Shown here: positions 938-54,865 of the stretch, one piece after another | How positions within the stretch are numbered: position 1 is the stretch's first letter | Layout of the letters: every line of letters begins with the position of its first letter | Position numbers and translations under genes: made by a program | The notes under the pieces: model-generated | The model's database searches: none | What the model saw: only the letters and a program-made list of their open reading frames with translations | What the model was told of the DNA's origin: nothing | Source: a virus | Length of the DNA: 58,665 nucleotides | Direction: 5' to 3' (one strand) | Virus record (IMG/VR): IMGVR_UViG_3300032242_001675 | Coordinates: 1 to 58,665 of that record

Positions 938-1789
938 ATGGTAGCGTTGCCCAAACCCGAGACTCAAATAATTGAGAAGATTTACGAGGCCATCGAGCAG
1001 CACGAAAAGCAGCCGTTCCGGCTCTCCCGCATCGGGGCTTCGGGGCTCGGCGGGGAATGCCTGAGGGCGGTGTGGTTGGCCTGGCGGGGGTATGCGGAGT
1101 CGCAGTTCAGCGGGCGCATGCGTAGGCTGTTCCGCACCGGCCACTTGCAGGAGGAGCGCATTATAGAAGACCTCCGGCGCGCGGGGTTGGAGGTCTGGTC
1201 GCACCAAGCCGACGGCGAACAGTTCACCTACACCGACCCCACGGGACACTTTGTCGCCAAGCTCGACGGCGTAGTTAAGAACGTACCGGGTGCCGAGAAA
1301 ACCCCCCACAACCTTGAAATCAAAACCCACAACAAGAAGAGCTTTGAGGAGCTACAGAAGAAAGGCGTACAAACCGCTAAACCCCTGCACTACACGCAGG
1401 TGCAGGCGGGGATGATGCTCTCCGGACTCACCCGCACGCTCTACGTAGCGCTGTGCAAAGACGACGAGCAGTTCTACGTGGAACGGATTAAGCCCGACGA
1501 GTACGCCATGGCTACCGTTCAGGCGCAGGTGACGCGGCTGCTCGCCGCCGAACTGATTCCCGCGGGCATAAGCGAAACCGGCAGCTCCTTCCCTTGCCGT
1601 TGGTGTGACATGCGTAAAGCGTGTGTAGGTGAAGAGCAGCCCATCAAAACGTGCCGCTCCTGCCTGAACGTGCGGGTGGTGACCGAGGGTGGAGGCTGGG
1701 TGTGTTCGCTCACTGAGGAGCCTCTGAGTGCTGCGGCGCAGCTGGCGGCCTGCGGTAGTTATGAGGCTCGCGCGGTGGCCAGGCTATGA
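938..1789 (+). CDS. PD-(D/E)XK exonuclease with Cas4/AddB-like cysteine pattern
   Basis: This 283-residue protein shows RecB-family nuclease motifs: GHLQEE (68-73), D110 in AKLDGVV, and E127/K129 in LEIKTH. It also has one cysteine before the nuclease core (C41 in GGECLRAVW) and C220-x2-C223-x5-C229 after it, the arrangement that binds a 4Fe-4S cluster in Cas4 and AddB nucleases. A further set (C239, C242, C256, C272) could form a zinc ribbon. The likely role is 5'-3' or processive DNA resection feeding the adjacent annealing protein. The start ATG at 938 lies 12 bases after an AAGGA. The next gene overlaps by four bases. Confidence 0.88.
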   Translation: MVALPKPETQIIEKIYEAIEQHEKQPFRLSRIGASGLGGECLRAVWLAWRGYAESQFSGRMRRLFRTGHLQEERIIEDLRRAGLEVWSHQADGEQFTYTDPTGHFVAKLDGVVKNVPGAEKTPHNLEIKTHNKKSFEELQKKGVQTAKPLHYTQVQAGMMLSGLTRTLYVALCKDDEQFYVERIKPDEYAMATVQAQVTRLLAAELIPAGISETGSSFPCRWCDMRKACVGEEQPIKTCRSCLNVRVVTEGGGWVCSLTEEPLSAAAQLAACGSYEARAVARL

Positions 1790-2301
1790 TCACCCTCGGC
1801 GTGGACCCCGGCCTGACGGGAGCGGTGGCGGTGTTGCGCGACGGAGCCGAGCTGCTGAGTTTGTTCGACATGCCCGTCATGCAGTCCGGCGCGGGCGGCA
1901 GCCGTGTGCAGAAAATAGTAGACGCTAAGGCGCTGCATGAGCTGCTCAGCGGGTGTTGTTTTTATTTCCGTTTTGAGTACAACAAAGAGCCCGCGGCGGA
2001 GCCGGTTTACGCCCTCGTTGAGCGCACGACAGCTATGCCGGGGCAGGGGGTCTCGTCAATGTACAGCATGGGGCACTCGCGCGGGGTGGTGGAGGGCGTG
2101 CTGGGCTCGTTCCCTCAGGTTGAAACCAGCCTGGTGCCCGCGGCGGTGTGGAAACGCCACATGGGCTACACCGCAGACAAAGAGCCTATCCGCGCGGAGA
2201 TGCAGCGGGTGTTCCCCGCCGCGGAGCTCAGGTTAAAGAAACACGCCGACCGCGCGGAGGCATTAGCGATGGCTTTGTATTTATACCGTCAGAAAAAATA
2301 A
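1786..2301 (+). CDS. RuvC-like Holliday junction resolvase
   Basis: The 171-residue protein has the RNase H fold signature of RuvC: D7 in LGVDPGLTG, E79 in YALVERT, and D155/E158 in KKHADRAEA, the four expected metal-binding acids. Phage RuvC homologues resolve branched DNA made by recombination and replication before packaging. It starts in an ATGA overlap with the exonuclease gene, so the two are probably translationally coupled. Nothing looks truncated. Confidence 0.9.
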   Translation: MITLGVDPGLTGAVAVLRDGAELLSLFDMPVMQSGAGGSRVQKIVDAKALHELLSGCCFYFRFEYNKEPAAEPVYALVERTTAMPGQGVSSMYSMGHSRGVVEGVLGSFPQVETSLVPAAVWKRHMGYTADKEPIRAEMQRVFPAAELRLKKHADRAEALAMALYLYRQKK

Positions 2302-4503: not shown

Positions 4504-4664
4504 GCAAGCCAATAACTGCTAAAGAGATGGTGAAAGATATGCTGAAAATGCTAGATGATGTTGTTGCTGATGTTCCGCCAGAAGAACGAGAGGAAGCGAA
4601 GGCAAAGATTTTGGGTGCATTTAGTCAACAAATGTTTTCAATGCAAATGAAGGAAAAAGAATGA
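4500..4664 (+). CDS. 54-residue helical hypothetical protein
   Basis: Encodes 54 residues with Met-rich amphipathic helices (KDMLKMLDD and FSQQMFSMQMK). It has GGAGG eight bases upstream and four-base overlaps at both ends. Function unknown. Confidence 0.6.
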   Translation: MSKPITAKEMVKDMLKMLDDVVADVPPEEREEAKAKILGAFSQQMFSMQMKEKE

Positions 4665-4939
4665 ACGAGCGACTAAAAGAACTTGCTATACGAGCTGATT
4701 TTTATGTAAATGATTCGGCAAAGCTAGGTCATGTCTGGTGTAGCGACCAATTGCCAATAGATGAAAACCTTGAGGAATTCGCCAAGTTAGTCAGGCAGGA
4801 TGAGCGTGAAGAAATCGCTAAATGGTTAAACACAGGTGTTGATTTTAAGGCGCTTGAAAAAGATCCGTTTCTTTTGCAATTTGCTTTTTCTATGATTGCG
4901 GGTATTTCAGAAATGATCACAGCAAGGGGTAAGAAATGA
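4661..4939 (+). CDS. Small phage protein, paralogue of the next gene
   Basis: 92 residues. The N-terminus (MNERLKELAIRA) and the later FAKLVRQDEREE match the next protein (MNEKIKQLAIRA and FAALVRDDALEE), so the two are paralogues from a tandem duplication. Proteins of this layout are common in proteobacterial phages but have no known role. Confidence 0.72.
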   Translation: MNERLKELAIRADFYVNDSAKLGHVWCSDQLPIDENLEEFAKLVRQDEREEIAKWLNTGVDFKALEKDPFLLQFAFSMIAGISEMITARGKK

Positions 4940-6730: not shown

Positions 6731-6948
6731 ATAATGAAGTAGCGATCAATCACGCTGGGGCAGTAGCCACTATCAGGTGGTCACGCGATGAATTTCATAT
6801 AACCAAAGAAAGTAAATTCAACGAAGAACTTGCTAGTACGCTCGAAATAATCCCCTATGGCGAGGCAGTTACCACTCTTGGCGAAGACCGACGCAAATGG
6901 ATGCACGATAAATTAGACGCATGGATAAATGGAGAACTTGATGAATAA
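6727..6948 (+). CDS. Small hypothetical protein
   Basis: 73 residues, mixed charge, starting in an ATGA overlap. Ends with a helical acidic tail (LDAWINGELDE). No family recognised. Confidence 0.62.
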   Translation: MNNEVAINHAGAVATIRWSRDEFHITKESKFNEELASTLEIIPYGEAVTTLGEDRRKWMHDKLDAWINGELDE

Positions 6949-7900
6949 AGAACTATTACAGCAGGCATTAGAATTGTTGGTTGCTTATCGAGACTACACA
7001 GGGGATTTTCGTATAGCGAACAAATGCGGATCGACAATCCAAGCACTTGAGGCAGAGTTAGCAAAGCCTGAATTGCCAAGGGTTTTCAGGGAAGTTCCGA
7101 TTGGCGATAATTATGTCCTGCGCTTTTACCCGTCGGATACAGGCTGGATGTGCGGGATTAGCAATGAGATGATGGATGCGATTGAAGAGTTATCCAAGCC
7201 TGAGCAAGAACCTGAACCTAAGTCTATTAAAGCAGAAGACCTTTTAGTTGAGTCCTATTATCCGCGCACAGGTACAAGTGATCGAGGGATAAAAATTACG
7301 CACACACCAACAGGCTTAATTGTTTATTGTGAGTCAGAGTACAGTCAGCACGCCAACAAAAAATTAGCTTTGCAAAAGTTAGAAGCAAAGTTAGCCAAGC
7401 CTGAGCAAGACTGGGATTTACTTGCAAAAACTCAAGAGTCCCTTCGTGAACATATGGCACGGATTAAAGAGTTGGAAGCACAGCTAGCCAAGCAAAAAGC
7501 ATTGGACAAGAAAGCCGACAACGCCCGTGATTTGGGGCTGGATTATGAGCCTGAGCAAACGCCTGTGGCGTGGGCAACATTTGATGGCGAAGGTAATTAC
7601 GATTATAGGAATTACGAGGATAACAAAAATTATCGTGACGAGTTTATTGAGCGCAACGGTACAAAGTATGCTAGTTGGGTAATGCCTCTTTACGCCGCAC
7701 CACAAAAGTATTGCCCGTCAGAAAACAATGCGACTTACGAAAAAGGTTTTGTTGACGGCATGGCAAAGCAAATGCACTCAAGCGTTGATCGTGCGGTGAA
7801 TGCGATGGATAAAAAATGCGATGTACATGAGTGCCGCAGGAAGGTACGAGAGGCAGACGATGACGCTAGCCTAGCAGGTGCAATTATTTACAGGAGATAG
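6941..7900 (+). CDS. Modular accessory protein with repeated KPE linkers
   Basis: 319 residues, the longest accessory gene. It opens with a LLQQALELL helix and contains several copies of an ALEAELAKPE-type element (about 31-46, 145-156, 170-184), each a short helix followed by a Lys-Pro-Glu linker. Near 200-255 lies a domain with TPVAWATFDG and ending PLYAAPQ, a closing motif common in mosaic phage proteins. The modular repeats suggest assembly by duplication of helix-linker units. Function unknown. ATG at 6941 was chosen for GGAG seven bases upstream. Confidence 0.75.
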   Translation: MNKELLQQALELLVAYRDYTGDFRIANKCGSTIQALEAELAKPELPRVFREVPIGDNYVLRFYPSDTGWMCGISNEMMDAIEELSKPEQEPEPKSIKAEDLLVESYYPRTGTSDRGIKITHTPTGLIVYCESEYSQHANKKLALQKLEAKLAKPEQDWDLLAKTQESLREHMARIKELEAQLAKQKALDKKADNARDLGLDYEPEQTPVAWATFDGEGNYDYRNYEDNKNYRDEFIERNGTKYASWVMPLYAAPQKYCPSENNATYEKGFVDGMAKQMHSSVDRAVNAMDKKCDVHECRRKVREADDDASLAGAIIYRR

Positions 7901-37929: not shown

Positions 37930-38352
37930 TTAAACGACGAACTGACGCATGTCAAGCACGCGGTCGGCGTTTACTTTGCAAAACAACTCAAAGTCGTTCA
38001 TGATTTGAAACGCAACGGTGTCTTCGGGGTCATCAGGGTGAGGAACCTCAAAACGATCGCCCGACCAACGCGGCACGCGACAAAAATCACCCACTTGAAC
38101 CCAAGTACCCTCAGGCCAATCTTGCGCAGTATCACGGTTTTTAAAACACAACGAGCCCATGCTGATTACTTTTGCTACTAGGGACTGCGCTTTTTCGGTT
38201 TCCCTCGTTTCATTAACCAGAAGTATCCCACCTTTAGAGGCGCGCTTTACGCTTTTAAGCTGTAAAAGAATTCTTGCGCCAAGCGGGGTAACACCGGGGT
38301 CAACGCTTGGGAATGCTTCCTCAAGTGTGGAAAAATCACGTTCAATAGTCAT
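37930..38352 (-). CDS. GroES-like co-chaperonin (capsid folding)
   Basis: 140 residues. TPLGARILLQLKSVKRA (22-38) and the mobile-loop-like SKGGILLVNETRETEKAQ (39-56), followed by VAKVISMG and a VQVGDFCRVPRWSGD segment, match the chaperonin-10 fold. In known phages such proteins pair with host GroEL to fold a capsid protein too large or slow for host GroES. It is placed between portal/HNH genes and scaffold, consistent with capsid assembly. Longer than bacterial GroES, with an acidic extension (about 85-140). Confidence 0.8.
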   Translation of the reverse strand: MTIERDFSTLEEAFPSVDPGVTPLGARILLQLKSVKRASKGGILLVNETRETEKAQSLVAKVISMGSLCFKNRDTAQDWPEGTWVQVGDFCRVPRWSGDRFEVPHPDDPEDTVAFQIMNDFELFCKVNADRVLDMRQFVV

Positions 38353-43011: not shown

Positions 43012-44436
43012 TCAGACTGCGTAAGGGTTAACGCGCGGGGGGCGCTGGTCGTCGGTGTAGTCGTCTTCGACCTGCACGGGGTCGATACCGACCATGCCCA
43101 TGTCGCGCAGCACGCGGAGCGCCTGGCTGAGCGCGTCCACGTAGTCGTCGTGCGTCGCGAGCGGGAACGAGCAGACCTGCGTGACCATCGGGTCGCACCA
43201 GAGCCGCGGCTGCCCGGGGCGCTGCTCCGACTCCGGCAGGTACACTCTTCCGCGCATGATGAGCGGGGCGACCAGGTTCAGGCGCATCGTTTTATCCGCG
43301 CGACCGGGGTTGTACGAGCGTACTGGTAGCCCGGCGCGCTGGAGGTCTTGAATGAGCGAGATACCTGCCGACTTGTCCTCAATCAGCACCAGGTCGACCT
43401 TCTTCCCGCTGCCGAACTCGTCCTCATCGCCGTAGATGCTACCGTACTCCTCTAGCACTTTAGGGCGCAGGTCCGGGTACTGCATGTGCTCCGACCAACA
43501 GTCAATAAGCATAACGCTCATCGGCGAGTCGGGTCCGGGGCGGAACACCCCGAGCACCACGCAGGCCGTCGGGTCGTTGATAGTCTTATCCGAGGTCGCG
43601 CAGTCGTAGGACTGCACCACGTACTGGAACTGCGGTAGTGGCCTGTCCGCTGGCCAGAGCTTAAACCACGAGCGCTTAACAATCCCGCCCTCCTCGGGGT
43701 CGAGGATTTCGGCGTGGATCTCCTGCCGACCGAGGTTAGTGCCCTCGTACTGCGAGAGTTCATCGATGAACGAGGCCGCAAGGTTCTCGCGGTTCTCGTA
43801 CGTGCTGCCCGTGGTGATGAGGGTGGAGCTTTCGTCGTCTAAGCCCTCGCTCACGAGCCGACGCACGAGGTCGATAGGCTTAGGGGTCGTGGTCACGATC
43901 ACCTTAGGCGCCTCCCCGAGCCGCAGCCCGAACTTCATCATCGACCAGGCCTCCTCCGGGTACTGCCAGGCCGCCAGCTCATCGCACCAAGCCATATGGT
44001 GCTGCGGTCCGCGTAGCCGCTCGTAGGCGTCCCCGCCGAAGCCGCGTATAATCGAACCGTTCTTAAAGACTATCTCCAACAACGACTTGTTGTACGACTC
44101 GATTAACACATCCGGTATGACCGCCATCAGCCCCGACTGCCCCTCAATGCACACCGCGCGCACGTCATTCAGCGTAGGCGCAATCACCGCGCAGCGGGAG
44201 TTCGGGTGGCTGGCGGCGAAGTCACCGAGCGCCTGCGCGCCGAGCAGGGTCTTGCCGAAGCCGCGCCCCGCAATCACTGCCCACGTCGTCCACCAATCCC
44301 CGGACGGCATCAGCTGCTTCTCCCGTGCCTGCGCGCGCCACTGCAACTTCCACGCAATCAGCGCGAGGTCCTCCACCGGCAGCTGCGCCATCGCGTTCTG
44401 CAACGCGGTCAGCTCGGCCGGGGCGAGCCCGCTCAT
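43012..44436 (-). CDS. terL: Terminase large subunit
   Basis: 474 residues. The ATPase has Walker A AGRGFGKT (56-63), Walker B with MAWCDE (148-153) and a TTTPKP coupling motif (182-187). The nuclease has D278 in SYDCATSDK, D354 in IEDKSAG and D430/D431/D434 in THDDYVDAL, the expected RNase H-fold acids. It drives genome packaging through the portal. The start overlaps the small-subunit stop by four bases. Confidence 0.93.
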   Translation of the reverse strand: MSGLAPAELTALQNAMAQLPVEDLALIAWKLQWRAQAREKQLMPSGDWWTTWAVIAGRGFGKTLLGAQALGDFAASHPNSRCAVIAPTLNDVRAVCIEGQSGLMAVIPDVLIESYNKSLLEIVFKNGSIIRGFGGDAYERLRGPQHHMAWCDELAAWQYPEEAWSMMKFGLRLGEAPKVIVTTTPKPIDLVRRLVSEGLDDESSTLITTGSTYENRENLAASFIDELSQYEGTNLGRQEIHAEILDPEEGGIVKRSWFKLWPADRPLPQFQYVVQSYDCATSDKTINDPTACVVLGVFRPGPDSPMSVMLIDCWSEHMQYPDLRPKVLEEYGSIYGDEDEFGSGKKVDLVLIEDKSAGISLIQDLQRAGLPVRSYNPGRADKTMRLNLVAPLIMRGRVYLPESEQRPGQPRLWCDPMVTQVCSFPLATHDDYVDALSQALRVLRDMGMVGIDPVQVEDDYTDDQRPPRVNPYAV

Positions 44437-44789
44437 TTGCTAGCCAACTTTTCAAAGGCCGAGGTGATCTGCCCGATCAGCTCCAACCTCACATCCACCG
44501 CGAGCGGATCGCCGTTCGGTCCGCTTATCTCCAGGGCTTTCCTTTTAGCATAGCCGTATTGTACTAAATCTTTCATAGAGTTATGTCTTACGGTTATATC
44601 GTTCTCTGGATTAAAAGCCATGTCGGCCAATGCCATCAAAGGGTCGCCGTACTTTTCAACCACCCGCGCAAAGGTCTCCTGCGTGTCCAGGGCGCGTTTG
44701 GTCTTCTGGCCTTTCTGCATGCCAGACCCCTCGGGGCGCTTCATCCCCTTCACCCAGTTAGGATTACCCGTAGCCACTTTCAACCCCAC
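44433..44789 (-). CDS. Putative terminase small subunit
   Basis: 118 residues from a GTG at 44789. Its position directly before the large subunit, a basic N-terminus (MKRPEGSGMQKGQKTKRALD) and a helical core with RHNSMKDLVQYGYAKRKALE match small subunits that bind the packaging site. An internal GTG at codon 5 (44777) has GGGG six bases upstream and may be the real start. A promoter (44811-44840) lies just upstream. Confidence 0.75.
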   Translation of the reverse strand: MGLKVATGNPNWVKGMKRPEGSGMQKGQKTKRALDTQETFARVVEKYGDPLMALADMAFNPENDITVRHNSMKDLVQYGYAKRKALEISGPNGDPLAVDVRLELIGQITSAFEKLASK

Positions 44790-44873: not shown

Positions 44874-45135
44874 AAAACCGCATACCGAACCCACCTACGT
44901 ATTCAATACCTCTGCGCTAAGCGGTTTCATGCGGTTTTATGCGGTTTTCTTAAATCCGAAATCTCTGAAAACTGCTTAGCGCGCTCCCAAAAAGCGCTAA
45001 GCGGTTTTACCGGTTTTTCTATTATGGAAATTTTTAGGTTTTAAAACCGCTTAGCTTTTGGTTTTTTGAGCCGCAGAATTTCTGCAATTTTCGGGTGTTT
45101 TCCTGCTCATTTTAAAAACCGGAAAACCGCTTAGG
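44874..45135. repeat. Iteron-like array in the 341-bp primase-terminase gap
   Basis: At least eight copies of AAAACCGC or its complement lie at 44874, 44921, 44931, 44941, 44968, 45001, 45043 and 45123; six are perfect. Five are extended to AAAACCGCTTAGC-like units (44914-44928, 44968-44982, 44994-45008, 45043-45055, 45123-45135), two in one orientation and three in the other. Three others form a second subfamily, AAAACCGCAT. Units at 44968 and 44994 face each other and can make a 15-bp hairpin with an 11-base loop. Candidates: replication origin, operator array, packaging site or terminator. The last copy overlaps the primase stop. No gene is seen in this gap (44790-45130). Confidence 0.85.
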
Positions 45136-47260
45136 TTTTCGGCCTACGCGCGACGCAGCCGCCTTGGTGTTGGATGTGGCGTTTTTTAATGTCCTTGACG
45201 TAGTCGATGTACCCGTCCTTAATCCACTTATCGACTGCGGCGAGCTGCGTTGACTTTGTCTTAAGGTAGCTGTCGTTCGCCTTAATCCAGTCGCAGAGTT
45301 CGTTCTTGGTCATGTACTCGCCCGCGCTCAGGCTCTCCAGGTGGCGTACGACCTTCTTACGTGCGTTGTTGAGCAGCATCCCTATCGACTGCTCATCTAT
45401 GGCTTGTTTCTCCTCCTCCTTGGCCTGTTTAATTGCCTCTAGGCCACCGTCACCCATTGCCCTCGGCACGCCATGGAGCACCGTCTCGTATACCCAGTTA
45501 CCGAGCTGGTCGAGCACTTTGCGCCCGTTGCTGGAGCAACCGAACACGATACCCTCGGCTTTCTCGACGAAGCGGTGCTTCGCCTGCTTCACCTCCAGCC
45601 AGCGGGTGTTGTCGTCCTCCCGCGTCAGGTAGAGCACCTGGTTCGCGTCGGCCTCCCAGGCGCCCGCGCCGCGCGCGCTCAGGTCGGCGATTTCCGCGCG
45701 CTTGAGCGCCTTTGCTAGGTGCCCGACGATTATAATCGGCAGCCCTGCGAATTTCTGTTTAAGCGTGGCCATCGCCGCGCCGACCTCCGCGTTATCGCTT
45801 TCGTTCTCCAGGCTAAAGCTCGCGTTGGCGGTGTCAAACACGACCACTGGCGCGGCGCGGAACACCACTCCGGTTTCTGGGTTTACGTTTTCGGTGTAGA
45901 AGTTTTTGTAGTCCTCCGCAGCCTGCACGATGTACTTTGGCGTAATGCGGGCGGCCTCCACCAGCTTAAAGCGGGCGTTGACGTCGGCGCTCGGGCAGTC
46001 CGCGAGCTCGCCGCTGAGGCGCAGGCTGCTGATGATCCGCTTCACCTGGCGCGGGTCTTCGCTGATGTAGATTATTTTACGCTGGAGCAGGGGCTTAAGG
46101 GCGTCTCCCGGGGGGCAGAGGTGCGCTACTCTGAACATCAGCGGTACGAGCTGGGTGGTCTTGCCCGCGCCGGTCGACCCCGCGAGCATCACCACCCCGG
46201 CCTCGATTATGCCGTCCAGCAGGTACTCAATCGCGACCGGTGCGCCCTCCACGTCGGGGTCGTAGCGGTTGTAGGGGTGGGTGTCTTCCTCCGCCTCCGC
46301 TCCCCCGCCCGTAACCCCCGCAACACCACCCCAGCGGTCAAAGCTGAGCGCGATGGCGTCGTTCGCGTCGCCCCGCACCACGCCCGCCTCCCCCGCGACA
46401 AAGTCCGCGGCGAGCCGCCGCAGGTTGCTTAAGTCCACCGGGTGCGCGCGGTCGACGTACTTCTCCGCGAGCGCGTGGACCTCCTCCATTATCCGCTCAA
46501 CCCCTAACCCCGCGCGGGCGCGCTCGCTAATGTAACGCTTAAACAGCTCGCGCCGCCCGTCGCCGTCGACCAGCCGCCGCTTGAGCTGCGTGCAGCGCTC
46601 CTGAAACGCCCACTCCCCCCGCGCGTTCGGCTCGCTCGGGGCGTCGTCGCCCGCGGTCGCCGTAGCGGCGGTCTTAAGTCTCCGCCCGATCGCCCCCTCA
46701 TTTAAGTCCGCGCGGGAGTCCACGTAGTCGCCCTCCACCCGGATGAACGGGTGCTCGTGCCCGCCCTTAACATAACCGAAGTAGAACGCCTGGCTCGCCG
46801 TAAAGCTCTCCCCCGCTAACACCCCGCCTAACACCCCATTAATGCGCGCGAGGTACAACGCCCGCCGCGCGACGGCCTCCTCCCCCGGCACCGCCGCGCC
46901 GAGCGGGGCGAGCAGCCGCCACTTCGGCTTTTCCGCGCTCCAGCTGGGCGAGGCATACAGCGCGCACTTCACCCGCGCGCTCCGCAGCCGCTCCGCGGCC
47001 TCCTCTAGGCTCATCTCGCCGGCATCGTAGTCGCCCTCCACGCCGAAGAGCTCCTCAATGTTCTCGTTGCTGCGCAGGCTGCCTTTCTCGGTCGCCCGGC
47101 TGCCGAAGCGCGCGAGCTTAAGCAACGGGCACTCCGCCTTTGCCGCGTAGCCGTTGGTGGATTCGAGCGCATCGAGCATGGCCTCCCAGGGCTGCTCTAT
47201 AAACCGCGCGGTGCGGGCGTTGACGTGTTTAAATGCTGTCCAACCGAATTTGCTGTTCAT
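45131..47260 (-). CDS. Primase-helicase (AEP prim-pol plus RepA-like ATPase)
   Basis: 709 residues. The N-terminal part (about 1-185) resembles an archaeo-eukaryotic primase: D77/D79 in GDYDAG supply metal ligands and KPKWRLLAPL (111-120) carries the basic residue of the family. The C-terminal part is a RepA/AAA_25-type helicase with Walker A AGSTGAGKTTQ (360-370), Walker B VVVFDTANAS and IIIVGHLAKA. It probably primes and unwinds at phage forks. It lies in the minus arm, away from the polymerase, and shares the leading transcript with the helicase. Confidence 0.82.
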   Translation of the reverse strand: MNSKFGWTAFKHVNARTARFIEQPWEAMLDALESTNGYAAKAECPLLKLARFGSRATEKGSLRSNENIEELFGVEGDYDAGEMSLEEAAERLRSARVKCALYASPSWSAEKPKWRLLAPLGAAVPGEEAVARRALYLARINGVLGGVLAGESFTASQAFYFGYVKGGHEHPFIRVEGDYVDSRADLNEGAIGRRLKTAATATAGDDAPSEPNARGEWAFQERCTQLKRRLVDGDGRRELFKRYISERARAGLGVERIMEEVHALAEKYVDRAHPVDLSNLRRLAADFVAGEAGVVRGDANDAIALSFDRWGGVAGVTGGGAEAEEDTHPYNRYDPDVEGAPVAIEYLLDGIIEAGVVMLAGSTGAGKTTQLVPLMFRVAHLCPPGDALKPLLQRKIIYISEDPRQVKRIISSLRLSGELADCPSADVNARFKLVEAARITPKYIVQAAEDYKNFYTENVNPETGVVFRAAPVVVFDTANASFSLENESDNAEVGAAMATLKQKFAGLPIIIVGHLAKALKRAEIADLSARGAGAWEADANQVLYLTREDDNTRWLEVKQAKHRFVEKAEGIVFGCSSNGRKVLDQLGNWVYETVLHGVPRAMGDGGLEAIKQAKEEEKQAIDEQSIGMLLNNARKKVVRHLESLSAGEYMTKNELCDWIKANDSYLKTKSTQLAAVDKWIKDGYIDYVKDIKKRHIQHQGGCVARRPKT

Positions 47261-47262
47261 TT

Positions 47263-48789
47263 TTAAAATATTTCCCCAATCACGTTCATCCAGTTCCCGG
47301 TGCGGCGGACTTTAACCGTCCGCGGGCACGGCAACCCCCGCGCCACCGTCTTTGCTTTCTCGGCCGAGCGCGGGAAGCTCCCGCACCCCCGGCGCGCGAA
47401 CCAGCCCGCGGCCTGCTGGTAGGCGTAGCCGTCGTACTCGGTGCAGACGAACTGCTTCGCGCTGAACCGCAGCCCGTTGCGCTCGCAGTCGTACGCGACC
47501 ATCAGCAACTTGCGCCCCGTCAGGGTCTTGCTCGGCAGCACGACGTAGCTGACGTCGCGGACTTCGGCGTCTGCGCCCGCGGAGCGCGCGAACATCGGGT
47601 CGAGCTCCGTCAGCTCGCTCACCTGCTGCACTCGCTTAACCGTGGCAATCAGCTCCGGGCGGGGCGCGGCGCTCACCTTAACGGGGGGCTGCCCCGGCGA
47701 GGGCGGCTCATCAAAGGCCTCCCGCACGCCCGCGGCAATACCCCCGTGCACCAGCAGGTTGCCCGCGTAGTCGAGCACCAAGCAGTTCTTCTTGCCCGCG
47801 GCGCGGCGCGTACCCCGCCCGAGCATCTGCACCCATAGCCCCTGCGAGGCCGTCGGGCGCAGGCAGACTATGCAGTCCAGCGCGGGGAAGTTAAACCCCG
47901 TGGTGAGCACGTTCACCGAGCACATCACGCGACACCCCCCGGCTTTCCAGGCCTCCAACTTACCGCTCCGGTCCTCGGTGTCCCCCACGACGTAGTCCGC
48001 GGAGCAGCCCTTCTCGCGGAACACCTCGGTGGCGAGAGCTGCAGTCTCCACGCTGGGGCAGAACACCGCGATGTGCTTACGCTCCGCGGCGAGCGCTAAT
48101 ACGGAGGGGACAACGCGGTTGAGCCACTCGCGGTCTTCTTGTAGGGTCACGGCTTTCATCTCGAACTCGCCCGCGACTTTCTTGAGCTCGCTGCGGTCGA
48201 CGCGGATGAGCGTGTTAACGCCGACCAGCGGCGCGAGGTAACCGAGGTTAACGAGGTCCAGCACGTTGGCCTCATACGCCAGCTCCGTGAAGTACCCGTC
48301 CCGTCCGTACACCTCTCCGTCTAAGCGGTAAGGCGTGGCGCTCAGTCCCACCCTGCGCGCCTCCGGGAAGGCATCAAACACCATCGGGTAAAACTTTGCG
48401 CCGGACTTCTTATCCGCTACGAGGTGACACTCATCCACCACTATGATATCAAACGCGGGTATCTCCCGTCGCTGCGCGGGACGGTAGAGCGACTGCACGG
48501 AGGCGAACAGCACATCATCCGCGGTGTCCCGGCGCTCTAACCCCGCGCACAGCACCCCCGGCTTTATGCCCGTCAGCCGCTCAAACTCCGCAGCGTTCGC
48601 CTCCACGAGCTCCTGCACGTGCGTCACGCTCAGCACGCGCTGCCCCGCGGCGAGCGCCTGCCGTGCGATTTCCGCGAGCACCAACGACTTGCCGCTCCCG
48701 GTGGGCAGGCTCAACACCGGGTGCCCGCCCGCCTTAATTACATTAACAGCGGCGCTGACAGCGTCCCGCTGATAGGGTCTCAGTTCCAT
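47263..48789 (-). CDS. SF2 DEAD/H-box helicase
   Basis: 508 residues. Motif I is LPTGSGKS (28-35), motif II is DECH (119-122), motif III is LSATPYRLDG and motif VI is QMLGRGTRRA. C-terminal to the helicase core is a cysteine-bearing module (about 425-480). Phage SF2 helicases of this type act in recombination, replication restart or transcript handling. First gene of the minus arm; AGGGAA precedes its ATG. Confidence 0.9.
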   Translation of the reverse strand: MELRPYQRDAVSAAVNVIKAGGHPVLSLPTGSGKSLVLAEIARQALAAGQRVLSVTHVQELVEANAAEFERLTGIKPGVLCAGLERRDTADDVLFASVQSLYRPAQRREIPAFDIIVVDECHLVADKKSGAKFYPMVFDAFPEARRVGLSATPYRLDGEVYGRDGYFTELAYEANVLDLVNLGYLAPLVGVNTLIRVDRSELKKVAGEFEMKAVTLQEDREWLNRVVPSVLALAAERKHIAVFCPSVETAALATEVFREKGCSADYVVGDTEDRSGKLEAWKAGGCRVMCSVNVLTTGFNFPALDCIVCLRPTASQGLWVQMLGRGTRRAAGKKNCLVLDYAGNLLVHGGIAAGVREAFDEPPSPGQPPVKVSAAPRPELIATVKRVQQVSELTELDPMFARSAGADAEVRDVSYVVLPSKTLTGRKLLMVAYDCERNGLRFSAKQFVCTEYDGYAYQQAAGWFARRGCGSFPRSAEKAKTVARGLPCPRTVKVRRTGNWMNVIGEIF

Positions 48790-49789: not shown

Positions 49790-50748
49790 GTCGCTCTATT
49801 TTTGAGACTCTGTCCGTCGACCGCACGGTGATCAGGTGGGAGGACCACCTGCGCACCCTCACCCCGGTGGAGAACCACCGTGGCGTCTGGTTCAAGCGCG
49901 AGGACTACTTTGCTCCGCTCGGCTACGGCGGACCGAACGGCTCTAAGATGCGCCAGCTGATCTGGGTGATGAGCAGCCGCCGCGCGGGCAAGACCCACGT
50001 GCTCTCGGGCGCTTCCGTGAGGTCGCCCCAGCTGAGCATGTCTGCAATTGTCGGCGCGCACTACGGCCTGCAGACTCGGCTCGTGGTGGGGGCTACAAAG
50101 CCCGCCACTCTTAAGCGCCACCCGAACCCCTACGTTGCGCTCGGGTTCGGCGCGCACTTTGAGTACATTAACGTCGCTTATAACCCGGCGCTCCAGCGGG
50201 AGGTCGCGCGCCTGACCCAGCCCGAGTCCTTGGTGGTGGAGTACGGCATTACGCTCGACCACAAGAAACACGACAGCGCGCAGGTCTACGGGTTCCACGA
50301 CGTCGGCGCACACCAGGTCACTAACATACCCCCCGAGGTGCGCACGTTGGTGGTGCCCGCGGGGTCTTGTAATTCCCTGGGTAGTGTGCTGCTCGGCCTG
50401 AGCCGGGACTCCAAGAACGTGTCCACGCTGTTCACGCTCGGAATCGGTCCGAGCAAGCAGTCCTGGCTACGCGACCGGATGAACAGCATCGGCGTGGACG
50501 TTGACCGGCTGCCGTTTGCCTGGAAACATTTCTCGCTCCACGACACCGGCTACTCGACTTACCAGGACATGGTCAAGGAGTCCTTTGACGGCATAGAGTT
50601 CCACCCGACCTACGAGGCCAAGTGCATAAGATGGCTTAAGGAGAAAGGCTGGGTGAATGAGGACGACACGAGTATGTTTTGGATCGTAGGCAGCGAGCCT
50701 AAAATACCGCTGATTAAGCCCTATTTCACCCACCAGGTGGAGTCATGA
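49786..50748 (+). CDS. PLP-dependent enzyme, ACC-deaminase/cysteine-desulfhydrase-like (fold type II)
   Basis: 320 residues. FKRED (36-40) followed by GGPNGSKMRQL (48-58) matches the KRED...GGNKxRKL signature of this family, making K54 the likely Schiff-base lysine. GASVRSPQLSMSAIVGAHYG (75-94) corresponds to the substrate-binding loop region, and VPAGSCNSLGSVLLGL (190-205) to the Gly/Ser-rich loop that holds the PLP phosphate. The enzyme would act on an amino acid, by decarboxylation, elimination or rearrangement. Immediate neighbours encode amino-acid:DNA-transferase-like and 5-hmdU kinase-like proteins, so its probable substrate is an amino acid linked to thymine in DNA. A free-amino-acid desulfhydrase is an alternative. 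Confidence 0.8.
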   Translation: MSRSIFETLSVDRTVIRWEDHLRTLTPVENHRGVWFKREDYFAPLGYGGPNGSKMRQLIWVMSSRRAGKTHVLSGASVRSPQLSMSAIVGAHYGLQTRLVVGATKPATLKRHPNPYVALGFGAHFEYINVAYNPALQREVARLTQPESLVVEYGITLDHKKHDSAQVYGFHDVGAHQVTNIPPEVRTLVVPAGSCNSLGSVLLGLSRDSKNVSTLFTLGIGPSKQSWLRDRMNSIGVDVDRLPFAWKHFSLHDTGYSTYQDMVKESFDGIEFHPTYEAKCIRWLKEKGWVNEDDTSMFWIVGSEPKIPLIKPYFTHQVES

Positions 50749-51755
50749 TGAGCCGACCCGACTACCGACTGCCCGAGCAGCGCCTCGGTTATTTCACGCA
50801 GCTGTATTATGCAACTTTAAAATACAAAGTATCTCCCGGACTGGTATACTTATTTATGCCTGAATTAGCCTCTCGTTACAACTGGTCTGTAGACCAAAAA
50901 CTTTGGTTTTCATTTATAAACGGGATGACTCAAAACCCTATAACTTCTATGCGCATAATGGAAGCCTCTCCATTTATTCCCCAGTCAAAAGAAGAGTTCA
51001 AGCGTTTGGACGAATGGTTTAACCGCGAATGGGACAAATTAAGTTTTGATACAGATAGAAGAAAGCAAAAACGCGATACTTTAAAAGCGATTTGGTCTTA
51101 TTCTGAATTAGTAAAAGAACACGGCTCTCAAGAAACTACCTGGAAACAAAAAACACCTTATTCAGTTTTATGGGAAAGAGCTAATGGTAAAATATACAGC
51201 TTTGGCAGGCTGAGCGCGTTCAGTTATTTAGAATATGTTAAGATAATGGGGTATGGAAACGACTGTTCTAGCCTTATGTTTGAAGAAAAAGAAGGAAGTC
51301 GTTCTCATCGAAATGGAGCTTTACTTTTACTAGGTCACGATGAAATTGTTTGGGACAAACGTATTGGCAACGGTTTTAATGGGCGGTATGAAAACTTTGA
51401 AAAAATATGCGAATATTTAACTAAAGCCGCTGATGATTTTTTAAAAGACTTTAACGCCAGGTACCCCGAGATTAAAGGAGATTACTACACTTTAGAAAGC
51501 TGTTTGTGTACGTTTAAAAACTCTTTTTTCTCTCGTAGGTATTTTGGAGTTTACGCCGATATGTCTTGGGACAGAATAAAATGGTATGATGATAAGGGTA
51601 TGTCCAAATATACAGAAATATTTAAAGACATTCGTTCTCAAAATTTACCGGAATGGTTAAGAGAAGAGTGCGAAAATAAACCAGTTTCTCGCTCTATAAA
51701 AGCTAGCAAATTTGCACTAACCGGTATTCCGTATCGAAGCGAGTTTTTTCTATGA
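50745..51755 (+). CDS. Putative amino acid:DNA transferase (AADT / aGPT-PPlase family)
   Basis: 336 residues. LWFSFINGMTQNP and the late segment TLESCLCTFKNSFF with RRYFGVYADMSWDRI resemble, from memory, the family that transfers amino acids onto pyrophosphorylated hydroxymethyl-deoxyuridine in DNA, including the CxxK/RRYxxVYxDM pattern. This would make the amino-acid thymine link that the PLP enzyme later edits. The first ~23 codons are GC-rich, but from about 50812 onward the gene is sharply AT-rich, unlike the genes on both sides, apart from the HNH gene. The recognition should be tested by profile search. Confidence 0.62.
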   Translation: MMSRPDYRLPEQRLGYFTQLYYATLKYKVSPGLVYLFMPELASRYNWSVDQKLWFSFINGMTQNPITSMRIMEASPFIPQSKEEFKRLDEWFNREWDKLSFDTDRRKQKRDTLKAIWSYSELVKEHGSQETTWKQKTPYSVLWERANGKIYSFGRLSAFSYLEYVKIMGYGNDCSSLMFEEKEGSRSHRNGALLLLGHDEIVWDKRIGNGFNGRYENFEKICEYLTKAADDFLKDFNARYPEIKGDYYTLESCLCTFKNSFFSRRYFGVYADMSWDRIKWYDDKGMSKYTEIFKDIRSQNLPEWLREECENKPVSRSIKASKFALTGIPYRSEFFL

Positions 51756-52399
51756 ACTATCAACGTATATATGAAAGTTTAATTTTTAAAGCGCAAGAAA
51801 GACCTCCCCTCACCGGCTACACGGAAAAACATCATATAGTTCCACGATGTTTAGGGGGAAAAGAAGAGCATTCTAATTTGGTCATTCTGAGCGCTGAAGA
51901 ACATTTTTTAGCTCATCAGTTACTCGTTAAAATTTATCCGAAACATGACGGACTAGCTTATGCTGCCAAACTTATGACTATGTCAAAAGGTAAAGGTAGA
52001 GTGGGTAATAAATTATACGGATGGTTAAAAAAGCGCGCTTCAATCGCACAGTCTAATCAGTCTTCTAAGCAGAATAAATTAAATAACCCGTCTAATAAAC
52101 CTGAAGTTAAAGCGATGCGCAGAGAACAGCTTTTAAAAAACAACCCTATGAAAATAGATAGTATTAAGCAGAAAGCTACTTCTAAATCAATCGCAAAAAC
52201 TAAAGAAAGAATGAAAAACCCAAGTCTTAGAAACGCATGGGTTGAAATCGTAACAAAAGCTAAAGTAGAGCAAAACTCTTACGCAAAACAGGGTAAATCT
52301 TTGAGTGATAGATGGAAAGAGCCTGATTTTAAGCGTAAGATGGTAGCTTCGATTAAAGCGGGTAAAGAAAAAAGCAAATTTAAAGAGGTTTTAATATGA
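51752..52399 (+). CDS. HNH homing endonuclease inserted in the modification operon
   Basis: 215 residues, low GC and lysine-rich. The HNH motif has HHIVP (27-31), N42 and H51/H55; after about residue 95 there are repeated DNA-binding elements (KAMRREQLLKNNPMK, KTKERMKNPS, LSDRWKEPDFKRK) of the NUMOD type. The first 60 residues match the HNH protein at 38362. It lies immediately after the AT-rich part of the transferase gene and keeps the ATGA overlaps, so it may have arrived with that segment. Confidence 0.85.
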   Translation: MNYQRIYESLIFKAQERPPLTGYTEKHHIVPRCLGGKEEHSNLVILSAEEHFLAHQLLVKIYPKHDGLAYAAKLMTMSKGKGRVGNKLYGWLKKRASIAQSNQSSKQNKLNNPSNKPEVKAMRREQLLKNNPMKIDSIKQKATSKSIAKTKERMKNPSLRNAWVEIVTKAKVEQNSYAKQGKSLSDRWKEPDFKRKMVASIKAGKEKSKFKEVLI

Positions 52400-52974
52400 A
52401 CCGTATTATCAACATTCGCGGGACTAGCGGATCGGGTAAGTCTACCATCGCCCGCACGTTCCTGGAGCATTTACCGCACGAGCCCCTACCGGACTCCACG
52501 GGTAAAGTGAAAGGCTACCGCGTGGACGCCACCGCGGCGGGCTTAACGCAGCCGCTGTTTATTGTCGGGCGGTATGACATCGCCTGCGGCGGGGGCGACA
52601 CCCTACGCAGCGAGGAAGAAGCCGCGCAGCTTTGTGACTTCGCGCAGCAGCAAGGCCACGTGCTCCTGGAGCGCATGCTCACCAGCGGGAGCGGACCGAA
52701 AGGGCAGTTCGCCTCCACGTTCCTCGGCACGGGTAAAATCACTTACGCCATAATGGACACCCCGCTGGAGGTGTGCCTGGAGCGGGTGATGGGGCGGCGG
52801 GCTGAGCGCGGCGACGACCGCCCGTTTAACCCCGAGAACACCGTGGGCAAGTACCACGGCTCGCACCGCGCGGCGGAAAAACTGAAAACCGCTGGCGAGG
52901 ACGTCCGCCTGATTGACCACACCGACGCGTTTAAACAGGTGTTGGCTATTTACCTGGAGGCCGAGCAGCTATGA
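52396..52974 (+). CDS. P-loop kinase, probable 5-hmdU DNA kinase
   Basis: 192 residues. Walker A RGTSGSGKST (8-17), a lid-like region with ERVMGRRAERGDDRP and a basic tail are typical of small P-loop kinases. In thymidine hypermodification operons the kinase phosphorylates 5-hydroxymethyl-deoxyuridine in DNA (Iyer et al.; Lee et al.). Its direct coupling to the next gene, which resembles the helical domain associated with this kinase, supports the role over ordinary nucleotide kinase activity. Confidence 0.75.
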   Translation: MNRIINIRGTSGSGKSTIARTFLEHLPHEPLPDSTGKVKGYRVDATAAGLTQPLFIVGRYDIACGGGDTLRSEEEAAQLCDFAQQQGHVLLERMLTSGSGPKGQFASTFLGTGKITYAIMDTPLEVCLERVMGRRAERGDDRPFNPENTVGKYHGSHRAAEKLKTAGEDVRLIDHTDAFKQVLAIYLEAEQL

Positions 52975-53858
52975 GCAGCGTACAGACCGTGACCGTAGAC
53001 ATTGACCTGTTTTTAAACTTCGTGACCGAGCGCGAGTCGCTTCGGCTGCGGAAGGAGAGCGGCGAGCCCGCCCCCTGGACCGAGGACGCCACGCTCGCGC
53101 GGTATCGGTTTTGCAACATACGCCGCAAAGACGACCGCGTGACGCGGTGGCTACTGCGCGAGTACTATGCCAAGCTCCCGCCCGACGCGGATTACTGGTT
53201 CGCCGCGGCAATCGCGCGCCACCTGAACTGGCCGCCGGTGCTTAAGGTGCTGCTGCAAGATAAGATGATTCCCGCGCGGGCGGAGAAGTTCTGGCCAGGG
53301 GCGTTTGCCGCCCGGCTGGAGCAGCTGAAAAAGGAGATGGGCAAGGTGTACACCTCGGCCTATGTCGTTTACCCCGGTCACGACAAAGGTAAGACTAAGT
53401 CCCACAACATGGCGCATTTGATATTTGCCCCGCTCGCCGAGAGCGCTAAGCAGGTGCGCGCGGCGCTGCGCCAAGGGCGGCTCGAGCCCACGGTGAACGA
53501 GCTGGTTAAGTCCTACGGCATTAGTAACTTTATGGCGGGGCAGATCGCCGCGGATTTAAGCTACCTGCCGGGGCAGCTGAAAGACGCCTCCGACCTCTAC
53601 ACCTACGCGTCGCGGGGTCCGGGCTCGCAGCAAGGCCTGAACCGCCTGCGGGCGCTGCCGCTGACGCACCAAGACTCCGCGGAGGAGTTCTGCGGCCACC
53701 TGCGGCAGGTGCTCGAGACCATCACCGAGTGGACTCCGTTTAAAGACCTAACGCTGTACGATGTGCAAAACTGCTTTTGTGAGTTCGACAAATACTGCCG
53801 GGCGGTGCTGCTGGAAGGCCGCCCGCGCCAAGACTACCACCCCACCACGGAGTTTTAA
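52971..53858 (+). CDS. HMUDK helical domain / aGPT-PPlase-like protein
   Basis: 295 residues, all helical with basic patches. FVTERESLRLRKESGEPAPW and YRFCNIRRKDDRVTRW (45-60) match, from memory, the helical-domain family named after 5-hmdU DNA kinases and related thymine pyrophosphorylases, itself derived from HhH glycosylases. It probably binds and flips the modified thymine for the adjacent kinase. It could instead be a second transferase. ATGA overlap with the kinase gene. Confidence 0.72.
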   Translation: MSSVQTVTVDIDLFLNFVTERESLRLRKESGEPAPWTEDATLARYRFCNIRRKDDRVTRWLLREYYAKLPPDADYWFAAAIARHLNWPPVLKVLLQDKMIPARAEKFWPGAFAARLEQLKKEMGKVYTSAYVVYPGHDKGKTKSHNMAHLIFAPLAESAKQVRAALRQGRLEPTVNELVKSYGISNFMAGQIAADLSYLPGQLKDASDLYTYASRGPGSQQGLNRLRALPLTHQDSAEEFCGHLRQVLETITEWTPFKDLTLYDVQNCFCEFDKYCRAVLLEGRPRQDYHPTTEF

Positions 53859-53866
53859 GAGAAACT

Positions 53867-54865
53867 ATGGAAATCATCGCACGTAATGTTAATGAGCTGT
53901 TCGCCGATATGCTCTGGCGGTTTAAAACGGAGTCCGTACTTACCCAGACCCGCAACGGACCCGCCCTGCGTATTCCCCGTCCGGTGCTCACCACGCTCTC
54001 AGCGCCCGAGGAGCGGGTGTTGTTTCACGCGGCGCGCGACGCTAACCCTATCTTCCACCTGATGGAGTCGATTTGGATGCTCGCGGGGCGGCGCGATGTC
54101 GAGTTCCTCGCGCTTTTTAACAGCCGCATCGCGCAGTACTCGGACGACGGTCGGGTGTTTAACGCGGCGTATGGCCACCGCATGCGCACCCACTTCCGCG
54201 TAGACCAGCTGATTGAGGCGATTACGCTCCTGCGGCGCGACCCCGAAACCCGGCGGTGCGTGGTGCAGCTGTGGGAGGCCGCCGACCTGACCAATCAGAA
54301 CTCCAAAGACCTCGCCTGCAACACGCAGATAGTCTTCGGGCGCGGGGTGCACGGCACGCTCGACGCACTAGTGACCAACCGCAGCAACGACGCGTGGTAC
54401 GGCTACGCCGGGGCTAACGCCGTGCACTTCACCGTCATTCAGGAGCTCGTGGCGCGGGCGCTCGGTTGGCCAATGGGTACGTACTCCACCGTCACCGCTA
54501 ATCTGCACCTTTACACCGAGCTCTATAACGCCCAGCACCACGTTGAGAACCCGCCCGTCAACGCCGACACTTTCGATTATTACTTCTTAAAGAACCTGAC
54601 GGCTTACCCGTTGATGGTTAACGCGAACTACCGCGGGTTCCTGGAGGACTGCGAGGCGTTCTGCCGCGACCCGTTTAACCAGACCGCGCGCTACCAGCAT
54701 CACTTCTTCCCCGCGGTGGCGCTCCCCATGGCTATGGTGAGCCACGTGCGCCGCACTAAACAGTCCGACGGCTATTACTGGGCGAGCCAGGTCGAGGCTC
54801 AGGATTGGAAAATAGCGACGCAGGAGTGGATTGCGCGGCGCGAGAAAAACTCAGCTATAATTTAA
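53867..54865 (+). CDS. Thymidylate-synthase homologue, predicted dUMP hydroxymethylase
   Basis: 332 residues. The catalytic cysteine is C151 in SKDLACNTQIVF. R172/S173 in NRSND bind nucleotide phosphate, D175 lies close, and N184 in GANAVHF matches the residue that favours dUMP (dCMP enzymes have Asp there). H214/Y216 in ANLHLY bind the deoxyribose. W70 in ESIWMLAG matches the conserved Trp. The operon context indicates a dUMP hydroxymethylase making 5-hydroxymethyl-dUMP, the building block for modified DNA. Ordinary thymidylate synthase is the main alternative. Confidence 0.85.
   Translation: MEIIARNVNELFADMLWRFKTESVLTQTRNGPALRIPRPVLTTLSAPEERVLFHAARDANPIFHLMESIWMLAGRRDVEFLALFNSRIAQYSDDGRVFNAAYGHRMRTHFRVDQLIEAITLLRRDPETRRCVVQLWEAADLTNQNSKDLACNTQIVFGRGVHGTLDALVTNRSNDAWYGYAGANAVHFTVIQELVARALGWPMGTYSTVTANLHLYTELYNAQHHVENPPVNADTFDYYFLKNLTAYPLMVNANYRGFLEDCEAFCRDPFNQTARYQHHFFPAVALPMAMVSHVRRTKQSDGYYWASQVEAQDWKIATQEWIARREKNSAII
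54831..54861 (+). promoter_or_regulatory. Possible internal promoter before the HD gene
   Basis: A perfect -10 TATAAT (54856-54861) lies at the end of the thymidylate-synthase-like gene, with TTGCGC 19 bases upstream, a long spacer. A TAACT-rich leader (54882-54904) follows, resembling the leaders of other promoters in this genome. Evidence is moderate because the -35 is poor. Confidence 0.4.

Follow-up and report, generated by a model that had tools for sequence, protein, structure and literature searches.

In the Staphylococcus aureus pathogenicity islands (SaPIs) the C-terminal domain of the Rep protein reads iterons that lie directly downstream of its own gene, and the helicase Cch2 of the staphylococcal cassette chromosome SCCmec has the same arrangement with a short repeat (PMC7581432). 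The phage-inducible chromosomal islands (PICIs) of Gram-negative bacteria share this rep-ori layout, with an AT-rich region flanked by two sets of iterons (PMC6092414). The Sulfolobus plasmid pRN1 encodes a protein, ORF904, that carries a prim-pol, a helicase and a C-terminal winged helix in one chain and whose stem-loop origin lies directly 3' of rep (PMC4234260), and fusions of a PrimPol-PV1 primase, a RepA-type ATPase and a winged helix (the PrimQH and All3500 families) are catalogued in mobile elements (PMC5862659). Here we analyse IMGVR_UViG_3300032242_001675, a virus sequence of 58,665 bp (the whole of this stretch is called "the window" below), in which an array of short iterons occupies the gap from the stop codon of a gene for a 709-amino acid (aa) primase-helicase (Rep) to a putative small terminase subunit gene (terS), with the large subunit gene (terL) next. 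We consider it highly probable that this array serves as the replication origin in a self-contained Rep-ori module and that it is bound by the C-terminal winged helix of Rep. What the sequence establishes is the array itself, its geometry, its linkage to rep across phages, the domain make-up of Rep and the fact that the repeat unit and the Rep C-terminal domain co-vary.

The array is made up as follows:

44874..45134, no strand: iteron array, candidate replication origin (motif counts, inverted repeats, resampling)
44874..44881, + strand: outlying AAAACCGC copy, closest to terS
44921..44948, - strand: three same-strand units with an exact 10-bp period (44921-44928, 44931-44938, 44941-44948), between the hairpin and terS
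44968..45008: hairpin with an 11-nt loop and a 15-bp stem that has one mismatch, one unit per arm
44997..45008, - strand: unit AAAACCGCTTAG in a hairpin arm
45043..45054, + strand: unit AAAACCGCTTAG
45123..45134, + strand: unit AAAACCGCTTAG overlapping the Rep stop codon

A sequence-only reading of this DNA had counted eight copies of AAAACCGC in 262 bp, and this count holds: six are perfect (44874+, 44931-, 44941-, 45001-, 45043+ and 45123+) and two have one mismatch (GAAACCGC within 44917-44928 and AAAACTGC at 44968), with four further copies of AAAACCGC across the remainder of the 58.7 kb. The five extended units that it described are also present, as five occurrences of the 12-mer AAAACCGCTTAG (with at most one mismatch) that all lie in 44917-45134; there are none elsewhere in the 58,665-bp record, in which a reversed-pattern control for this 12-mer gave no match. 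When the gap was resampled with a first-order Markov model, the maximum number of AAAACCGC copies in 5,000 trials was three, compared with the six observed. The last unit overlaps the Rep stop codon (45131-45133), and the GC content of the array is 0.42 versus 0.64 for the Rep gene and 0.53 for terS. The 15-bp hairpin noted in that reading at 44968-45008 has arms at 44968-44982 and 44994-45008 (15 nt, 93% match); its 13-bp inverted pair is real but is one base longer than was claimed (14 nt, 100%, at 44996-45009/45042-45055), and there is a third pair (21 nt, 86%, 44997-45017/45114-45134). The predicted fold of 44900-45070 is strong (z -5.9). The array DNA, searched directly, had no match in phage records and in plasmids gave only a 28-bp match at chance level, while two sub-threshold matches in Rfam are ascribed to chance. 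The earlier statement that no array with this unit has been described thus stands for the unit and not for the layout, which is described for SaPIs and PICIs (PMC7581432, PMC6092414).

Searches with the Rep protein found viral contigs and bacterial genomes that encode homologues, and most of these homologues have a dense array of short units, in both orientations, that starts within tens of bases of the rep stop codon. In a test for which no unit was chosen beforehand (the best 8-mer present in at least four copies within 400 bp after the rep stop, among nonredundant homologues), 55 of 88 post-rep regions were positive, against 17 of 1,869 control windows from the same loci; L008 and L011 are false negatives caused by wrong-frame open reading frames (ORFs), and arrays are present in both. 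The repeat unit differs from clade to clade (AATACCGCTAAT, TGTACCGCTAA, CATACCGCTT, ATACCACATG, GGAACCGCAT, CTACCGCAT, GGGAACAGCAG, GAAGTTGCTG, AAACCAGACA, GGAACGGACG, AATCGTTCG and others, with AAAACCGCTTAG in the window). It had been proposed that the identical unit be sought in related phages; among viral contigs the core pattern was matched only in L006/L118, and such a search would have missed the family because the unit varies between clades. The usual order along the direction of rep is two units, a reverse-unit pair, a CCTAAAGGA-like box, a hairpin with one unit per arm, and then three to seven forward units on the same strand with a period of about 10 bp, or one helical turn. The window array follows this order, with the hairpin and then minus-strand units at exact 10-bp steps (44921, 44931, 44941). 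A hairpin score of at least 10 was found for 31 of the 55 arrays and for 1 of 220 controls. This excess is due in part to inverted units; the hairpins of L054 and L124 are not built from the unit, which argues for a role of the hairpin separate from that of the units. Covariation in the stem was left uncounted, since iterons form both arms, which would change in step regardless.

Some of these relatives have other settings. In a distant subgroup (L188, L198, L201, L203 and L204) the unit cluster does not adjoin rep but is found 0.6-3.4 kb downstream. L124 and L129 are bacterial chromosomal loci in which the rep homologue and its array adjoin integrase genes and the array and a short downstream ORF overlap; the L129 (Pseudomonas) stretch ends beside mutY. 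Both resemble small integrative elements or satellites.

Rep proteins often have a regulatory role besides initiation, and an intergenic array upstream of terS might be an operator through which the winged-helix tail or another regulator controls terS or the rep operon, with no origin function. We regard this as improbable. The array is 3' of rep, away from the rep promoter, the downstream genes vary among relatives, and the hairpin and helical phasing are kept along with rep. A terminase promoter had been placed beside the array in the sequence-only reading, but the sole sigma-70-like match (44840-44811, minus strand, 9/12) is at chance level, with one found and 0.6 expected.

Packaging sites commonly lie upstream of terS and terL, so the position of the array, together with its direct and inverted repeats, would also fit a pac or cos site read by the small terminase subunit. 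The terminase genes are

44433..44789, - strand: putative terS, directly upstream of terL, with 67-72% identity to the gene in the same place in L006 and L038-L041
43012..44436, - strand: terL (Pfam Terminase_6N/6C)

Comparison with L006 makes a terS start at 44774 more likely, and terS had no match in Pfam. Four other phages, L038-L041, have terS and terL 67-72% identical to those of the window and a replication protein of another type (RepB_primase-like plus DUF5906); the gap before their terS holds a GTAAC-type repeat set and lacks the window-type array, so the conservation with terminase that a packaging site should show was not found. Conversely, among the rep homologues the array stays after rep where the next genes differ and no terL lies within the 6 kb examined. 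Since L038-L041 share the terminases but have another rep and other repeats, the array, to judge by these comparisons, belongs to the replication protein rather than to the terminase; rep and array look like an exchangeable module ahead of the terminase genes. In L038 the other replication protein stands with its own GTAAC-type repeats (4554-4866) ahead of closely related terS and terL genes, which would represent an exchange of the whole rep-ori module. The packaging-site option of the sequence-only reading is therefore disfavoured and in our view quite improbable, while its option of an origin bound by the primase-helicase gains support from the way in which the array tracks rep across phages.

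The Rep gene and its parts are

45131..47260, - strand: primase-helicase (Rep) gene, 709 aa, with a primase-like N-terminal region, a RepA-type AAA_25 helicase and a C-terminal winged helix (Pfam, PHROG, structure models, PDB comparison)
45707..46246, - strand: RepA-type helicase core, residues 339-518 (Pfam, structural matches)
45146..45448, - strand: winged-helix domain at the C-terminus, residues 605-705, the proposed reader of the iterons (model, winged-helix matches)

The Pfam match to AAA_25 covers residues 339-518 (E 3.8e-13), and the top structural matches of residues 329-561 are to the RSF1010 RepA entries 1olo, 1g8y and 1nlf (Z 16.3-16.5), with DnaB and G40P tied within 1 Z; the Z of 16.5 to 1olo/1g8y spans 193-194 residues. 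The last 100 residues are a winged helix in two models and match the winged-helix domains of many DNA-binding proteins; the tail model has a confidence (pLDDT) of 77.5 and a helix-helix-helix-two-strand wing topology. Such matches establish the fold alone and are silent on sequence specificity. The N-terminus has weak PHROG primase matches and is not matched by Prim-Pol, and the full-length model is poor over the N-terminal 330 residues, where the primase part was left unassigned; the homologues L007-L036 clearly carry Prim-Pol and PriCT_1. Between the window and L006 the AAA core is 75% and the tail 60% identical, yet the first ~200 residues, when aligned, have no convincing similarity, so the N-terminal parts of Rep have evidently been exchanged among relatives.

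That the tail is the part of Rep that reads the array is suggested by how the units vary. Unit similarity has a correlation of 0.76 with the identity of the tail, 0.72 with that of the core and 0.47 with that of the N-terminal part, and the partial correlation of unit with tail given core is 0.33, a value reached by 0 of 999 permutations. Among pairs whose cores are at least 85% identical, a mean of 0.87 of the copies are shared where the tails are at least 80% identical and 0.21 where they are less than 70% identical. L157 and L170, for example, have cores 98% identical, tails 61% identical and different units; their DNA identity is 97-100% in the core, 65% in the tail, 51% in the array and 89% beyond it, and the tail type and unit of L170 are common to L154, although the L154 core is only 81% identical. 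In discordant triples, in which core and tail relatedness disagree, and with tail identity restricted to at least 50%, the exact unit sides with the tail in 68 of 77 cases and with the core in nine.

Several observations weigh against an origin read by the Rep tail. The correlation for the tail is barely above that for the core. When loose unit similarity is used over all 586 triples, the core is favoured in 349 and the tail in 137; nearly all of the unrestricted triples compare very distant tails, and at tail identities of at least 0.5 the count becomes 61 versus 3 for the tail, but this restriction was chosen after the unrestricted result had been seen. The pairs and triples are non-independent and go back to only two or three recombinations. 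Because the tail and the array are neighbours, linkage by itself could carry both along, and such physical linkage may be a partial alternative to recognition; it is weakened where DNA past the array is conserved, as in the pairs L157/L170, L017/L014 and L153/L159, but this conservation is not general, as median identity is 0.68 beyond the array and 0.70 within it. About a third of the distant homologues are without an array within 400 bp, and for distant homologues a AATCGTTCG/CGAACGATTA cluster was found 0.6-3.4 kb further downstream, or none was found. Finally, the cumulative GC skew of the window has its minimum near 48-50 kb, away from the array, and tracks gene strand.

If the array is nevertheless the origin that we propose, binding, melting, helicase loading, priming at the hairpin and use of the array as the main phage origin are steps that we infer. 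The winged-helix tail would bind the AAAACCGCTTAG-like iterons, and several Rep protomers could assemble on the 10-bp-phased units along one face of the helix. The RepA-type ring helicase would be loaded beside or on the central hairpin in the AT-rich gap, the N-terminal domain of Rep would prime synthesis, and the family-B-like polymerase of the phage (55869-57719) may extend the primer. The RSF1010 oriV has single-strand initiation (ssi) hairpins, and by likeness to these we conjecture that the window hairpin is the priming site. The hairpin, with its A/T-rich flanks and strong predicted fold, could instead terminate transcription, or mark a boundary, between rep and terS, an option raised in the sequence-only reading that is very improbable, since no T run follows the gene-direction hairpin in the window or its relatives and a terminator would not require eight units, 10-bp phasing or clade-specific units that track the Rep tail.

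The closest relative, L006, has the same gene order as the window and shares with it

44917..45053: conserved core, bounded by CTAAGCGGTTT and AAACCGCTTA, 89% identical at the nucleotide level across 139 alignment columns

In L006 this core is at 12973-13111 of contig IMGVR_UViG_3300034198_012463. It matches the + strand of the window, whereas the genes are on the - strand in the window and on the + strand in L006, and thus it is inverted relative to the genes. The L006 orientation appears to be the derived state, because in the window and most relatives the three phased units lie between the hairpin and terS, whereas in L006 they lie on the rep side. The inversion is a single case on one metagenomic contig; misassembly is unlikely, as the repeats are so short. 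That the conserved block starts and ends at the CTAAGCGGTTT/AAACCGCTTA inverted repeats and is inverted could mean that it is a small mobile or invertible element of about 139 bp, like a miniature inverted-repeat transposable element, but this is hardly credible: it is single copy with no target duplication visible by eye, its core pattern is in just one other viral contig, further units lie outside it, and the corresponding site in other relatives has a homologous layout.

Returning to the Rep-ori module, a further idea, which we hold tentatively and would lean slightly against, is that tail and array form a swappable specificity cassette. Phages whose replication proteins are otherwise near-identical would swap matched winged helices and iterons, as if avoiding the cross-use of origins by co-infecting relatives or satellites, and the origin would work in either orientation, as the inverted core of L006 suggests. 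Such a cassette would be a phage counterpart of plasmid incompatibility groups.

Upstream of Rep is

47263..48789, - strand: Superfamily-2 type helicase (Pfam ResIII/DEAD/Helicase_C), 72% identity in L006

The window also encodes, besides terL, a portal-like protein and a long late operon. The polymerase gene mentioned above (phrog_1252) is on the + strand, and a Cas4-type exonuclease and a Holliday junction resolvase are encoded in the 938-2301 (+) region. A cluster at 50745-54865 (+) contains genes for an amino acid:DNA transferase (ADDT), a 5-hydroxymethyldeoxyuridine (5-hmdU) kinase helical domain and thymidylate-synthase-like proteins, which suggests hypermodified thymidine in the phage DNA. 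A gene at 6929-7900 (+) encodes a domain of the peptide chain release factor RF-1, which is unusual for a phage, and a Cpn10/GroES-like gene lies inside the structural operon (37930-38352, -); such a gene near terminase is also annotated in MW202545 and Caulobacter phage RW.

Fused primase-RepA-type helicases form a broad family that occurs in uncultivated phages and also, on integrase-bearing elements, in bacteria such as Pseudomonas, and most of its members are annotated merely as "repA" or "hypothetical". These findings would assign the family a candidate origin together with a probable reader. They also supply dozens of naturally occurring winged helix-unit pairs, some on near-identical backbones, so that a DNA-reading code could be tested by swaps, and a rule for finding phage origins, namely to inspect the DNA directly 3' of the fused primase-helicase gene. 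A literature search, whose coverage left out most subscription journals, found no such origin described for phage RepA-type fused proteins.

Among described systems, RSF1010 (IncQ) resembles the window in its RepA-type hexameric helicase fold (with DnaB-type folds within 1 Z) and in the iterons and hairpin of oriV, but it uses a separate RepA, RepB' primase and RepC iteron binder where the window has one 709-aa chain. pRN1 shares the one-chain architecture and the stem-loop 3' of the rep gene; it differs in its SF3 helicase, its lack of iterons and its stem-loop of about 100 nt. The PrimPol-PV1 fusions have the same domain order of primase, RepA-type ATPase and winged helix, and L007-L036 have Prim-Pol and PriCT_1, but the passages of that catalogue considered here concern proteins and not origins, and the window N-terminus is unmatched by Prim-Pol. 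The SaPI/PICI rep-ori is like the window in that the iteron array is immediately 3' of the initiator gene. In the window, where the array has a GC of 0.42, the hairpin has units to either side, and the tail is a predicted winged helix with which the unit appears to co-vary. The window virus, on the other hand, has its own terminases and structural genes and so is not a satellite, and its Rep is not related by sequence to SaPI Rep, Cch2 or D5-type helicases and matches only AAA_25 (RepA/RecA type) in Pfam, with RSF1010 RepA and DnaB as the best folds. The proposed mode is like that of the SaPI/PICI rep-ori, and the window system is set apart by its RSF1010-RepA/DnaB-type helicase core and by the hairpin around which its 8-13 bp units are arranged with a 10-bp period.
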